DNA of 58,817 nt from a virus. Under the pieces are notes generated by a model that was given only the letters and a program-made list of their open reading frames with translations, ran no database searches and had not been told where the DNA came from. Where the stretch lies: IMG/VR virus record IMGVR_UViG_3300004460_000011, positions 1 to 58,817 of that record; one strand, 5' to 3'. Position 1 is the first letter of the stretch, and each line of letters opens with the position of its first letter. Shown here in pieces: positions 6,543 through 47,810 of the stretch. The position numbers and the translations under genes are program-made.

Positions 6543-7864
6543 TATTTAATGTTCTTTTTTAAGAATGCTGTACAAAAATTTAATAATTCTTTTCTTGCTG
6601 GAGCAATATCACTCTTTTCTGTTGCAGGGCCACTTTTCCATTCTATCCAACCTTCTACTATTTCTTCTAATCCTTCTTCAAGACCACGCATAAGTTCAAT
6701 ATACTCTTCATTAATTTTACTTTCATTATAACTAACAATATCAGAATATTTAATTTCGTGTTCTCCGCCGTCTTGATCTAATGCAAAAATCGTTTTATCT
6801 CCCCACATCGAATCATTATCATCGTTACCATTATCAAATGCATAAATAACATATTCTTGGCCGTTACCTAATTGAATCATACCATCATCTTTTTTCATGG
6901 CTTTAATTAGACTCTTTTTATTAAATTTTGCTTCATTAATTTTAAAGCTATCTAATGATTTTAAATTTTTCATATTTTCATTTTCTTTTATTGGTTGCAT
7001 TATAGTTTGTAATGGTTTATAAAATCCATGTATACTTTTAGGAGTCATTTTCTTAAAAGTCTTTTCATCATCTATCTTTAAAGCATTACGAACTTTAGAT
7101 GCTGATATATTTTCTTCACCTCTTTTTATTTCAAATCCTTTAAAGCTTGGGTCAACTCCTAAATCATCTCGATATGATTGTTTATTAATCATATTACCGT
7201 ATGCTTTCTTTCTATCAGTACCATAACCCCACATCATAGGTTCATATGTTGGTCTTGCTGCTGCAAACATTGTATCAATTGCTCCATTAGGAACTACAAA
7301 GCTTGCTTCTAAAAAAGGATATTGCTTTTTCATTTTAGCAAACATAGCTTGTTGCATATCTTCATCAAATGGCCTTTTCTCTGGATCAGCTTTACCACCT
7401 CTTACCATATAAACTACAACAGGTAAACCATTTTCTTTATACATTTTTTCAAATACTTTAACATGACCTAATGTAAAAGGTTGAAATCTACCAACAAACA
7501 TGTTTACTGGTTTTTTACCTTTTTCTTTATGAGGTACATTTAAAGCTTCATTAAGTATTGTGGTTTTATTCTTTACTCTTAATCCATAAGGAGAAAGTGA
7601 AAAAGTTTTGATTCCTGCTTGGTCTTCACTGATATTAAATAAAGTTTTATTTCTACCTAACCATCTTTTATTAGCGCTAAGCTCTGAAAGAATTTTAGAC
7701 ATTTCTTCTTCAGTAATATGACCATCTGAAATAGCATCTAAAATTACACTTCTGATTCTAGCATTTGTAGATACATTCTTAGCAGGATATGCCTCTGTAT
7801 ATCTTCTCTTTACTACAATCTTTTTTTCATTTAAGAAATTATTTAAATCATTTATGTTATCCAT
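6542..7864 (-). CDS. HIGH-motif nucleotidyltransferase (NMN adenylyltransferase-like)
   Basis: This 440-residue protein has a central domain (~119-290) with GRFQPFTLGH (residues 125-134), the HIGH-type nucleotide-binding motif of the NadM/cytidylyltransferase superfamily, and ISASKVRNAL (253-262), equivalent to the ISxTxxR motif. Enzymes of this family join a nucleotide to NMN, FMN or a phosphoalcohol with release of pyrophosphate. NMN to NAD is the best guess, but the substrate is unproven. The catalytic domain is flanked by two prohead-protease-like sites, LNE106|A107 and INE311|A312. The second sits in MKNLKSLDSFKINEA, which looks like an old N-terminal leader now fused inside the protein. 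The C-terminal ~130 residues are unrecognised. The start lies 12 bp after the upstream gene. Confidence 0.75.
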   Translation of the reverse strand: MDNINDLNNFLNEKKIVVKRRYTEAYPAKNVSTNARIRSVILDAISDGHITEEEMSKILSELSANKRWLGRNKTLFNISEDQAGIKTFSLSPYGLRVKNKTTILNEALNVPHKEKGKKPVNMFVGRFQPFTLGHVKVFEKMYKENGLPVVVYMVRGGKADPEKRPFDEDMQQAMFAKMKKQYPFLEASFVVPNGAIDTMFAAARPTYEPMMWGYGTDRKKAYGNMINKQSYRDDLGVDPSFKGFEIKRGEENISASKVRNALKIDDEKTFKKMTPKSIHGFYKPLQTIMQPIKENENMKNLKSLDSFKINEAKFNKKSLIKAMKKDDGMIQLGNGQEYVIYAFDNGNDDNDSMWGDKTIFALDQDGGEHEIKYSDIVSYNESKINEEYIELMRGLEEGLEEIVEGWIEWKSGPATEKSDIAPARKELLNFCTAFLKKNIK

Positions 7865-19980: not shown

Positions 19981-20337
19981 TTATATTCTCTTGCCGATAA
20001 CTGCACCTAGCGCAGCACCTACAAGACGTGAGGTTAATAAATCATAAAGAGCACCTTTAGTAACACCTAATACTTTAGCTACTGCTTTACCTATAGTTTT
20101 TCCTAGTGCAAATCCAGTAAGTCCACCAAATATGCTACCAAGCAATCCTTCATTAATTATTTCTTCTACACAATCTTCTAAATTCTTGCCTTCTTTTTGA
20201 GCTTCAAGAATTCTATCTACTGCTAAATCAATAGCAGCATCTTGCTCTTCTGTTAAATCATGAGATTCATTTAATAAATCTTCTATGTTTAAAGAATCTT
20301 CTTTATTCTCGATTAGATAATCTTTAAATGTTTTCAT
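19981..20337 (-). CDS. Small two-part protein: acidic leader plus glycine-zipper helix
   Basis: This 118-residue protein begins MKTFKDYLIEN, a variant of the T4 internal-protein leader. Residues 1-63 are acidic. Residues 64-118 are hydrophobic and basic with glycine-zipper spacing (GLLGSIFGGLTGFALGK..., VGAALGAVIGKRI), able to insert in membranes. Possible prohead-protease sites are LNE24|S25, ILE45|A46 and INE63|G64. The last falls exactly at the junction and would release the membrane-active half. An ejected membrane-interacting peptide or a holin-like protein are alternatives. A late-type promoter core lies 17 bp upstream. Confidence 0.6.
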   Translation of the reverse strand: MKTFKDYLIENKEDSLNIEDLLNESHDLTEEQDAAIDLAVDRILEAQKEGKNLEDCVEEIINEGLLGSIFGGLTGFALGKTIGKAVAKVLGVTKGALYDLLTSRLVGAALGAVIGKRI

Positions 20338-20354
20338 TAATGTTCTTTATTTGT

Positions 20355-20363
20355 TTATATATT
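20355..20363 (-). promoter_or_regulatory. Late-type promoter core AATATATAA
   Basis: AATATATAA lies 17 bp upstream of the ATG at 20337 and overlaps the stop of the upstream tube-like gene. It has the same spacing class as the other late-type cores here. Confidence 0.55.
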
Positions 20364-44001: not shown

Positions 44002-44364
44002 TTAAAAAAGAGCACCTATAACTCTCTGTTCATTTACAAAAATATCAACCAATGCACCATCTCTTTCAAGTGTAGAAAAGAAACTTACTTTTGTATTTAC
44101 ATCAAACCCTGCAAAATCTGGTAAACAGTATGCAGTGATTTGGCTGTTAATATTATTTTGTATAGTGTTTTCGTTTAATACTAAAGAAAATATTAATTCA
44201 TCTAAATTACAACCTATACTAGGAGCACCTAAAACTTCTCCTTTTCTAGTAAATAAACAATTTTCTATCTTAATAATTAATTGAGATAGAGAATCACTAA
44301 CTTCCAGTGTAGCATCATTATATTTAGGAGCCTCTACATCTCTACTATAAATATCTCTAATCAT
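44002..44364 (-). CDS. gp25-like baseplate wedge protein
   Basis: This 120-residue protein (T4 gp25 has 132) shows the gp25/gpW family pattern: an N-terminal helix (SDSLSQLIIKIENCLFTRKGE), a conserved GAPSIGCNLDELIF segment, a second helix and a beta hairpin ending LVDIFVNEQRVIGALF. gp25 anchors the first sheath ring to the wedge. The start is supported by the late-type promoter core 20 bp upstream. Confidence 0.88.
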   Translation of the reverse strand: MIRDIYSRDVEAPKYNDATLEVSDSLSQLIIKIENCLFTRKGEVLGAPSIGCNLDELIFSLVLNENTIQNNINSQITAYCLPDFAGFDVNTKVSFFSTLERDGALVDIFVNEQRVIGALF

Positions 44365-44384
44365 TTAAGAACACTAATTTTTTA

Positions 44385-44393
44385 TTATATATT
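44385..44393 (-). promoter_or_regulatory. Late-type promoter core AATATATAA
   Basis: AATATATAA lies 20 bp upstream of the gp25-like ATG in a 61-bp intergenic region and would drive the wedge operon. Confidence 0.6.
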
Positions 44394-45295: not shown

Positions 45296-46588
45296 TTATA
45301 TTTTTTCTATTTCAATTATTTCGGTATTTTCAAACTTTGCTAATTTAGTAGCTCTACCTTTTCTAAAAATACCACCTTCCATTTCGCCACTAAATACTCC
45401 TTTAGGCCCAAAGACATAAGAATCTTTACACATTACATTTTTACTTACATAAGAATCTTCTATCTTACAATCAGCAGCATCAGTTGCACCAAACAAGTTA
45501 CTCTCAAATAAAGATGAATTTATAAGTTCTGAACTAAAGATATCACAATTTAAAATATTACCTTGGATTTTACAATCTACAATATCAATTCCTTTTATTT
45601 CAAAGCATTGCATTAATTCAGCATTTTTCAATTGCATTTTTCCAGTATCAGCATCATAATTAATTAAACCTTCTTTTAGTCCTGCTAAAGTTAAAAGTTT
45701 AAAAATCTCCTCCCTCATTTTAGGATAAAAAGTTTCTACAATTTGATCATACGTTTGTAGGTCAACCATTAATTTTATCCTTGGGAATCTTTTCTTAAAC
45801 GCTTGGTAATCTTTATATGATTCCACTATACCACTATGCTTTTCTAAAACAGCATCTAATTGTTTAAGGTCATTATTGGTATATTGAGGATACATTAAAG
45901 TTTCATATAATGATACAACAAAATGTTCAGTTAAATCCATTATAGTATTATACTTCTTTTCATAATCTTTTCCGCCAAGATATCTAAATTCAATATAATT
46001 TTTAGGTAACTTGGAAAAGTTTACACCATAATACTTTTCAGATACAAACATGTAATTTTTCCATAAGATTTTTTCTGGGGAAGGTTGAGTCATTCCACTT
46101 AAAGGAACAATAAATTTTATTGACTTAGCATAAACAGAATCTTTTCTGTTAGGAAATGCTTCATAAATTTTATTCTCATTAAAATTTAATACAAATTTTC
46201 CAATATCTAAACTTGATACATTTGTAGGAGTTCCTAATTTCTTTCCATCAAATGCTACATTAACATGAATACTACATCGCTCATTAGTGAATCCATTTTC
46301 ACGAATCCACTTTAGAGTTTTTGCAATAATAAGTTTTGATTCAACAAACGGCATTGGCCCAGTGACCAATTCAATCATGCCAGTTCCACCTGAATTATCA
46401 GGCTCTAATTTAAATACTTCATCGGAAGGTGTAAATTCACTATGAGCCTTTTCTTCTATTTGTATTCTTTTATTTAAAACATTAGAAAGACTTCTTTTAA
46501 CCTCGTCTAACCCTTCATTAGCAAAGAATTCAAATTCTAATCCAATCTTGGATGCATATATGGCATTTAATTGTTCGTTAGTGTACAT
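45296..46588 (-). CDS. Predicted amidoligase with C-terminal beta-solenoid
   Basis: This 430-residue protein carries the motifs of glutamine-synthetase-fold amidoligases (PF12224 type): G16LEFE20, an E73-LVTGP strand, C-SIH108VN110V, and E200FR202 followed by YLGG. Such enzymes use ATP to join carboxyl and amino groups and are linked to peptide tagging, cell-wall or metabolite modification. Residues ~326-415 form short repeats with Cys/Ile/Ser periodicity (DCKIQGNILNCDIFSSELIN) like pentapeptide-repeat or beta-solenoid folds, ending GGIFRKGRATKL. The gene sits inside the baseplate cluster, after the S1-like gene. Its ATG is preceded by AGGA, which is buried in a hairpin with a promoter core in the loop. 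Substrate unknown. Confidence 0.72.
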   Translation of the reverse strand: MYTNEQLNAIYASKIGLEFEFFANEGLDEVKRSLSNVLNKRIQIEEKAHSEFTPSDEVFKLEPDNSGGTGMIELVTGPMPFVESKLIIAKTLKWIRENGFTNERCSIHVNVAFDGKKLGTPTNVSSLDIGKFVLNFNENKIYEAFPNRKDSVYAKSIKFIVPLSGMTQPSPEKILWKNYMFVSEKYYGVNFSKLPKNYIEFRYLGGKDYEKKYNTIMDLTEHFVVSLYETLMYPQYTNNDLKQLDAVLEKHSGIVESYKDYQAFKKRFPRIKLMVDLQTYDQIVETFYPKMREEIFKLLTLAGLKEGLINYDADTGKMQLKNAELMQCFEIKGIDIVDCKIQGNILNCDIFSSELINSSLFESNLFGATDAADCKIEDSYVSKNVMCKDSYVFGPKGVFSGEMEGGIFRKGRATKLAKFENTEIIEIEKI

Positions 46589-46592
46589 GTAG

Positions 46593-46624
46593 TTCCTGAT
46601 TTGTTTATATATTCAAACCAGGAA
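46593..46624 (-). promoter_or_regulatory. Hairpin with RBS in the 3' arm and promoter core in the loop
   Basis: Minus-strand TTCCTGGTTTG (46624-46614) pairs with CAAATCAGGAA (46603-46593): 11 base pairs including one G-U, with a 10-nt loop AATATATAAA. The 3' arm contains AGGA, five bases before the amidoligase ATG. Read-through transcripts from the S1-like gene would hide this site. Transcripts started at the loop promoter would lack the 5' arm and leave it free. Confidence 0.65.
46605..46613 (-). promoter_or_regulatory. Late-type promoter core AATATATAA in hairpin loop
   Basis: AATATATAA lies 16 bp upstream of the amidoligase ATG, inside the loop of the inverted repeat at 46593-46624. Confidence 0.55.
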
Positions 46625-46628
46625 TAGG

Positions 46629-47771
46629 TTATGCTATGTTCATGGTAATCTTGCGATCACTAACATTCACACTTCCAATTTTTACATTTATAGAATCACC
46701 TTTAGATAGATCGGTTCCCTTTAATTTAGACTTATGAATTAAACCACTAATACCTTTTTCTAATTCAACAAATGCACCGTATGAAGTTATTTTAGTTACC
46801 TTACCTTCAGATATCATCATAGGTTTATATTTATCATTAACGCCATCCCATAGATCAATCTTAGGACCTAATTGGCTTAATATAATTTTTCTATCTGATA
46901 TAACTTCTTTAGCCCAGAATGTTATTTCATCACCAGGTTTAATACTTCTATCATCCAATGCTTTTTGAAATTCTTCACTTAATTCAGCCTTAGGAATTAA
47001 TCCTGTTAAGCATTCATCAAATTCAGCAAATACACCAAACTTAGTAGTACCTGTTACAAAGCCTATTCTAGGTTCTTTAATAGTCTCATTTAATTTTTCA
47101 ATTGTTGAAGGAATCATTGTTCTTAAATATTCTCTATGGGATACTACAACCGTATCCTTTTCCCTAGAGAATGTTATTGGCATAACAATTATTTCTTTAC
47201 CAACAATAGCACTAAAATCATGTAATTTATTTAAACCTCCTAATGAACCTGGCATAAAACATTTAATGCCTGCAACATCTACCCAATATCCACCATGAAT
47301 TAATTCTTTAACTTTAGCAGTAAAACCAATTGTTGAATTTCCAATAGCCTCTTTAATTTCTCTTAGCTTAACTTCTTTTATAGCATCTGAAATAGAAGCT
47401 ATGACATCACCAGTTTTTGGGTTGGTTTTTATCTTAATGTCAATTTCCATACCAACCTCTAATTGTTCAACAATATAATCAGGTTCTTTTGATAGAGTAC
47501 AATACGCTGTATATTTAGACTGAATGTCAATAAGAGCTCTTTCTCTATCTTTAGATATAAAAGAAACTTCACCTCTTGTAGTGTAAGCTATATTGTCTTC
47601 TATTAATTGAGTTTTTTGTAGAGTGGAATCGTGAAGATTATACATAGAAAGTGCATCAGCAGCATATGCTTCATTTGCCATTAATTTTGTACCTTCTGGA
47701 ACTTGAACTTTTATTTTCTTTGTATCAAATGGATCATCACTTAATTGAATGGTGATTTCTTGCTCGGTCAT
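46629..47771 (-). CDS. Ribosomal protein S1-like protein with four S1 domains
   Basis: This 380-residue protein has four S1 (OB-fold RNA-binding) domains at about 64-130, 148-215, 233-300 and 317-380. The last is canonical (GKVTKITSYGAFVELEKGIS, GLIHKSKL). Bacterial S1 has up to six such domains; the first two bind the ribosome and the rest grip mRNA leaders. The first ~60 residues (TIQLSDDPFDTKKIKVQVPE) are extra. A phage S1 could favour A/U-rich, SD-less phage leaders, or protect or remodel RNA. It lies among baseplate genes between a small gene and the amidoligase, with its own late-type core upstream. Fold assignment is firm; role is inferred. Confidence 0.85.
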   Translation of the reverse strand: MTEQEITIQLSDDPFDTKKIKVQVPEGTKLMANEAYAADALSMYNLHDSTLQKTQLIEDNIAYTTRGEVSFISKDRERALIDIQSKYTAYCTLSKEPDYIVEQLEVGMEIDIKIKTNPKTGDVIASISDAIKEVKLREIKEAIGNSTIGFTAKVKELIHGGYWVDVAGIKCFMPGSLGGLNKLHDFSAIVGKEIIVMPITFSREKDTVVVSHREYLRTMIPSTIEKLNETIKEPRIGFVTGTTKFGVFAEFDECLTGLIPKAELSEEFQKALDDRSIKPGDEITFWAKEVISDRKIILSQLGPKIDLWDGVNDKYKPMMISEGKVTKITSYGAFVELEKGISGLIHKSKLKGTDLSKGDSINVKIGSVNVSDRKITMNIA

Positions 47772-47801: not shown

Positions 47802-47810
47802 TTATATATT
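47802..47810 (-). promoter_or_regulatory. Late-type promoter core AATATATAA
   Basis: AATATATAA lies 30 bp upstream of the S1-like ATG in an 86-bp intergenic region. A short TAGAT/ATCTA inverted repeat flanks it. Confidence 0.5.

Follow-up and report, generated by a model that had tools for sequence, protein, structure and literature searches.

A hairpin with a promoter-like motif in its loop at the start of a putative amidoligase gene in a T4-like phage

The amidoligase start and its surroundings

The DNA analysed here, which we call the window, is a virus record of 58.8 kb that carries T4-type genes, among them those for single-strand binding protein, UvsY, helicase, primase, tail tube and baseplate proteins. 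On its minus strand a gene for an S1-domain protein stands directly upstream of one for a putative amidoligase, and the short interval between them contains the hairpin that is our subject. The features referred to below, in the order in which minus-strand RNA would read them, are:

47802-47810, minus strand: AATATATAA ahead of the S1 gene, without a hairpin (motif scan and stem search)
46629-47771, minus strand: S1-domain RNA-binding protein, source of the proposed read-through RNA (Pfam S1, E 5.5e-21)
46593-46624, minus strand: hairpin with 11-bp stem and 10-nt loop, on RNA reading through from the S1 gene (letters, folding and arms of relatives)
46614-46624, minus strand: 5' arm, TTCCTGGTTTG, missing from RNA begun in or after the loop
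46604-46613, minus strand: loop, AATATATAAA, holding AATATATAA at 46605-46613 (motif placement statistics)
46593-46603, minus strand: 3' arm, CAAATCAGGAA, spanning -15 to -5 of the start, with an A-rich box (-14 to -11) and AGGA inside it
45296-46588, minus strand: putative GS-like amidoligase of 430 aa, its C-terminal part of pentapeptide type (Pfam in relatives, Foldseek)
44385-44393, minus strand: AATATATAA ahead of a gene-25 homologue, whose start ranks second in the window for structure

The amidoligase assignment draws on matches to Pfam Amidoligase_2 in relatives (of 15 family members, 7 reach E<=1, the best at 6e-5; the window protein itself has none) together with an AlphaFold model of pLDDT 90, for which Foldseek ranks glutamine synthetases highest in the PDB, at E 4e-5 and with low TM-scores of about 0.3.

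Read along the minus strand, the S1 stop codon TAA (46631-46629) is followed by CCTA, TTCCTGGTTTG, AATATATAAA, CAAATCAGGAA, CTAC and the amidoligase ATG (46588), four bases thus separating the S1 stop from the 5' arm and another four the 3' arm from the ATG. An 11-bp inverted repeat with one G-U pair and a promoter-like motif in its loop had been proposed here from the sequence alone; re-reading of the letters finds it exactly as claimed, and places AGGA within the 3' arm at 46597-46594, five bases 5' of the ATG, again as proposed.

Folded alone, the hairpin has a free energy of -12.3 kcal/mol; in three fragments its folding z ranges from -3.3 to -4.2, none of 200 shuffles being equally stable, while RNA beginning at the loop forms no structure (0 kcal/mol). 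Random flanks drawn from the same genome give a stem of at least 11 bp around the motif with a frequency of 7e-4 per site, or 5.5e-5 if at least four G-C pairs are required, and the remaining 10 of the 11 AATATATAA sites on the minus strand have stems of only 1 to 4 bp; the earlier reading had called such a match unlikely by chance. Mean unpaired probability at -16 to +3 is lower at the amidoligase start than at any other of the 49 starts in the window, 0.31 against a median of 0.63. No T-run follows the hairpin 3' in the window sequence. We regard the existence of the hairpin in the window as confirmed.

Pairing around the motif in relatives

The relatives comprise 268 loci, many of them repeat entries of a contig already present, and these reduce to 58 distinct upstreams. 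(From an earlier locus set 60 of 62 loci are displayed, L029 and L046 having no start; L027 and L035 offer only 30 nt of upstream sequence.) AATATATAA is present in 52 of the 58, and lies 16 nt from the start in 41 of these 52; the stem around it is at least 8 bp long in 42, at least 9 bp in 37 and shorter than 8 bp in 10. At every one of the 15 loci measured the 3' arm covers the start region.

Arms pair better with their own partners than with those swapped in from other clusters: the mean scores are 9.38 and 5.44 (p 5e-5) in 17 amidoligase clusters, and p is again 5e-5 in 19 clusters, values to be read knowing that cluster tests presume more independence than related phages possess. The same signal is absent at the S1 gene (p 0.12, 28 clusters) and at a 92-aa gene (p 0.63, 4 clusters). 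With the first member of each cluster scored, stems of at least 9 bp occur in 8 of 13 amidoligase clusters versus 1 of 72 clusters of other motif-bearing genes (Fisher 2e-7), one of those 72, L187 (stem 6), being an amidoligase relative overlooked by the search pattern.

The arms themselves vary widely. In the near clade a block of the 5' arm, CCTG[GA]TT, is kept between variable flanks; in L110, L109 and L108 the arms are partly unlike those of the window and still pair around the motif, over 13, 15 and 9 bp respectively; and in the most divergent cases, L112 (9-bp stem, TTG start) and L235 (15-bp stem, burying the ATG itself), they share no sequence with the window and pair nonetheless. These comparisons support the view that complementarity has been maintained while the arm sequences changed. 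Column-wise covariation gives a less uniform picture: in the near clade it does not beat shuffles (130/500 for score), and in a wider alignment it is mixed, with 7/500 for cells paired, 45/500 for score and 395/500 for pairs changed on both sides. A strand test of RNA versus DNA symmetry counted 6 G-U and 7 A-C contexts. The covariation in relatives that the sequence-only reading had proposed as a check shows when arms are swapped, but not in column-wise counts within the near clade.

That reading had also named an observation that would tell against it, a promoter kept without its arms. This is the situation in one clade (L038, L044, L047, L049-L051 and L062), where the promoter is retained without a good stem, but not across the family. 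L114 likewise lacks a masking stem; a script found in it a terminator-like hairpin with a T-run (6741-6768) just ahead of the amidoligase promoter, which in this one case would render a masking stem needless. Six of the 58 upstreams have no AATATATAA: four of them, the more distant amidoligase relatives L192, L195, L196 and L207, fold start-region hairpins of -11 to -15 kcal/mol, L198 takes another shape (-12.2 kcal/mol), and L206 reaches -4.5 kcal/mol. Five more distant amidoligase relatives from huge phages (L125-L129) show no AATATATAA placed as in the window.

The loop motif as a probable promoter

At 8 of its 11 coding-strand sites AATATATAA lies 5-35 nt ahead of a start, as against 70 of 433 sites for 83 anagrams (binomial 5e-5), and AATATATAAACAAAT is unchanged across 22 distinct upstreams. 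Such placement supports the conclusion that AATATATAA behaves as a promoter-like motif. A 181-kb relative, one of the 10 records searched, encodes a gp55-type sigma ORF (phrog_234, E 3.8e-14); none was found in the other nine, all shorter fragments, nor among 38 proteins of the window, itself a fragment, scanned with PHROGs. The gp45 clamp profile phrog_223 matched in none of 6 records, in a search whose positive control also gave no match, and phrog_12791 in none of 10, where a working positive control was lacking. Variant late promoters, and the absence of a -35 element, are described for T4 (PMC2988020). From the placement of AATATATAA ahead of starts, the gp55-type ORF in a relative and the T4 variants we infer, with good reason, that it is a gp55-type late promoter. 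The late promoter core that had been read into the loop thus stands as regards its promoter-like placement and the sigma gene of a relative, but the T4 consensus TATAAATA does not apply to it.

Two other candidates were set aside. As a promoter of the window phage TATAAATA itself is unsuitable: it occurs at 12 sites where shuffles lead us to expect 18.8, and neither of its 2 coding-strand sites is ahead of a gene. Nor is any weight placed on the strand bias that AATATATAAW shows in 10 relatives, the backward control pattern being a nearly identical motif.

The motif recurs in other leaders. Ahead of the gene-25 homologue, in the window (44364-44393, minus strand) as well as in L339, L109, L147 and L235, it lies within a weaker hairpin; in L339, CATAGAGAAT pairs with ATTCTCTATG over the ATG. 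Own and swapped arms at this gene differ with p 0.013 in 20 clusters and p 0.25 in 4 clusters, and a weaker version of the device may thus be present there. A 118-aa gene has a near-identical leader (AATATATAAACAAATAAAGAACATTA, window 20337-20363) without the 5' arm.

Translation starts and the probable host

AGGA had been taken for the ribosome-binding site that the hairpin sequesters. SD-like tetramers, however, are not enriched near starts: they occur at -20 to -4 in 12.8% of the 47 window genes versus 14.9% farther upstream, and at 595 starts of relatives in 13.4% versus 12.6%, base-shuffled leaders being lower in both sets (6.4% for the window, 7.3% for relatives). What marks the starts is a peak of A, 0.61-0.71, at -14 to -11. 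Starts of Flavobacterium johnsoniae are described as having an adenine excess at these same positions, no SD, and initiation tuned by structure (PMC6847099), and ribosomes of Bacteroidia as not reading the SD (PMC9976891); for Bacteroidetes, binding of the A-rich box by bS1 has been put forward as a speculation (PMC6847099). The likeness to F. johnsoniae is in the A excess and the missing SD; the trait described there is host-wide, whereas the hairpin here is specific to this one gene.

Five of eight relatives carry a gene for ribosomal protein bS21 (G001:114138-114287, G002, G005, G007 and G011), a second translation factor beside the S1 gene; bS21 genes are reported also in phages assigned to Bacteroidetes hosts (PMC9723584). 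The A excess, the lack of general SD use and the bS21 genes together make a host among the Bacteroidota likely.

Since SD sequences are not enriched in these phages and their starts carry the A signature, AGGA probably does not serve as the working ribosome-binding site, and the earlier identification of it as such is not supported by these figures, nor by L235 and L112, where the start codon is masked without any AGGA. The masked element is most aptly described as the entire initiation region, of which the A-rich box, AGGA or the start codon is covered according to clade.

Proposed masking of the start on read-through RNA

The hairpin, the motif and the retention of pairing despite change in the arms are established by computation. 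They suggest the following scheme. RNA reading through from the S1 gene, or from farther upstream, would fold the 32-nt hairpin, burying -15 to -5 of the amidoligase start, and so would yield little protein. A phage promoter recognised through the motif in the loop would start RNA a few bases further on, near or inside the 3' arm; lacking the 5' arm, this RNA could form no hairpin and would be translated. Amidoligase would thereby be made from its own promoter and not from read-through. We infer that the motif acts as a gp55-type late promoter, and likewise where the RNA begins and how translation is affected. That the element is a leader of the T4 gene e type, in which a hairpin masks the start on read-through RNA and RNA from the loop promoter is translated, is in our judgement rather probable: the hairpin, the motif in its loop, the maintained pairing, the geometry of gene e and the gp55-type gene in a relative all favour it. 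Comparative support is solid for the hairpin and moderate for the mechanism, and the sequence-only interpretation is upheld in part.

The RNA that is silenced may itself be late, for the upstream S1 gene has the same motif ahead of it (47810). Strictly late production of amidoligase, as had been expected, is for this reason no more than a suggestion.

The main rival is translational coupling to S1, which we consider unlikely, if clearly better placed than the others. By this account the hairpin shuts amidoligase off until ribosomes finishing S1 open it, and the loop promoter is a second source of message. Beginning 4 nt past the S1 stop, the window hairpin could indeed be opened by terminating ribosomes; S1 is the usual upstream long ORF (18 of 21 loci inspected; in L114 it is 241 nt away), and the 5' arm starts 2 to 6 nt past its stop in 7 of 15 loci and within the S1 end in L112. 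Over the 15 loci, however, the distance from stop to arm ranges from -7 to 29 nt, and the 15-bp stem of L109 persists 29 nt beyond the stop. With the stop distance so variable and the motif-to-start spacing so constant, it is the promoter geometry that selection fixes, and not a coupling distance.

A DNA operator, in which a protein on two half sites blocks the promoter between them, would account for the symmetrical flanking of the motif and has a reported parallel in the autorepression of I-TevI at its own late promoter (PMC2988022). We think it improbable: a single protein would not easily allow the wholly different arms of L112 and L235, in each of the 15 measured loci it is the translation start that the 3' arm covers, and 71 of 72 other-gene motif clusters do without a stem of at least 9 bp. 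Less probable still is some other function for the RNA stem, in processing, say, or in shielding the 3' end of the S1 message, that leaves amidoligase translation unaffected; in many loci the stem does follow the S1 stop immediately, but the next start is masked in every locus measured, the motif is centred in the loop and no T-run comes after the stem. Chance pairing kept by common descent, with which the near-clade covariation counts and the kinship of the clusters would agree, is very unlikely in view of the swapped-arm result, its negative controls at neighbouring genes and the pairing of unlike arms such as those of L112 and L235.

To the gene e-type leader that we prefer may be added a more elaborate version, which we offer as a long shot: that phages infecting SD-less Bacteroidota have remodelled the gene e device to mask an A-rich box at two or more late genes (those of the amidoligase and the gene-25 homologue), the phage S1 protein, encoded directly upstream, opening the hairpin, so that its level would gate amidoligase synthesis on read-through RNA.

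Comparison with T4 leaders

In T4 gene e a hairpin silences early RNA and late RNA is translated, and in the leaders of soc, 49, I-TevI, I-TevII, segB and Aeh1 mobE a helix is described as hiding the SD or the AUG on the longer transcripts, and their late RNA as having no 5' arm (PMC3014915, PMC2988022). Our stem script, applied to T4 gene e, returned an 11-bp stem with TATAAATA as an 8-nt loop. In soc it placed only 5 bp around the promoter, and within 70 nt upstream of gene 49 it met no TATAAATA; gene e is for these reasons the nearer model. The arrangement of e, soc and I-TevI to which the sequence-only reading had likened this locus accordingly holds for the geometry of gene e, but the stem search did not extend it to soc.

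Searches of the literature on amidoligases in phages and on late promoters, which reached few subscription journals, returned nothing on this element. A classic device of T4, where it serves genes of lysis, capsid decoration and homing endonucleases, would now be found at an enzyme gene, and extended to T4-like phages whose hosts probably belong to another bacterial phylum, a group with another promoter motif and probably an SD-blind host. The divergent arms of relatives are natural variants with which the silencing of an SD-less start by a hairpin could be tested directly.

The resemblance to gene e (PMC3014915) lies in an 11-bp stem whose loop holds a late promoter motif, an initiation site in the 3' arm and a start codon just past it. 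The differences are that T4 combines TATAAATA with a strong SD, whereas the window phage has AATATATAA and makes no general use of the SD, and that the element described here has upstream of it an S1 gene with the same motif, serves a GS-like product, and probably works in another host.
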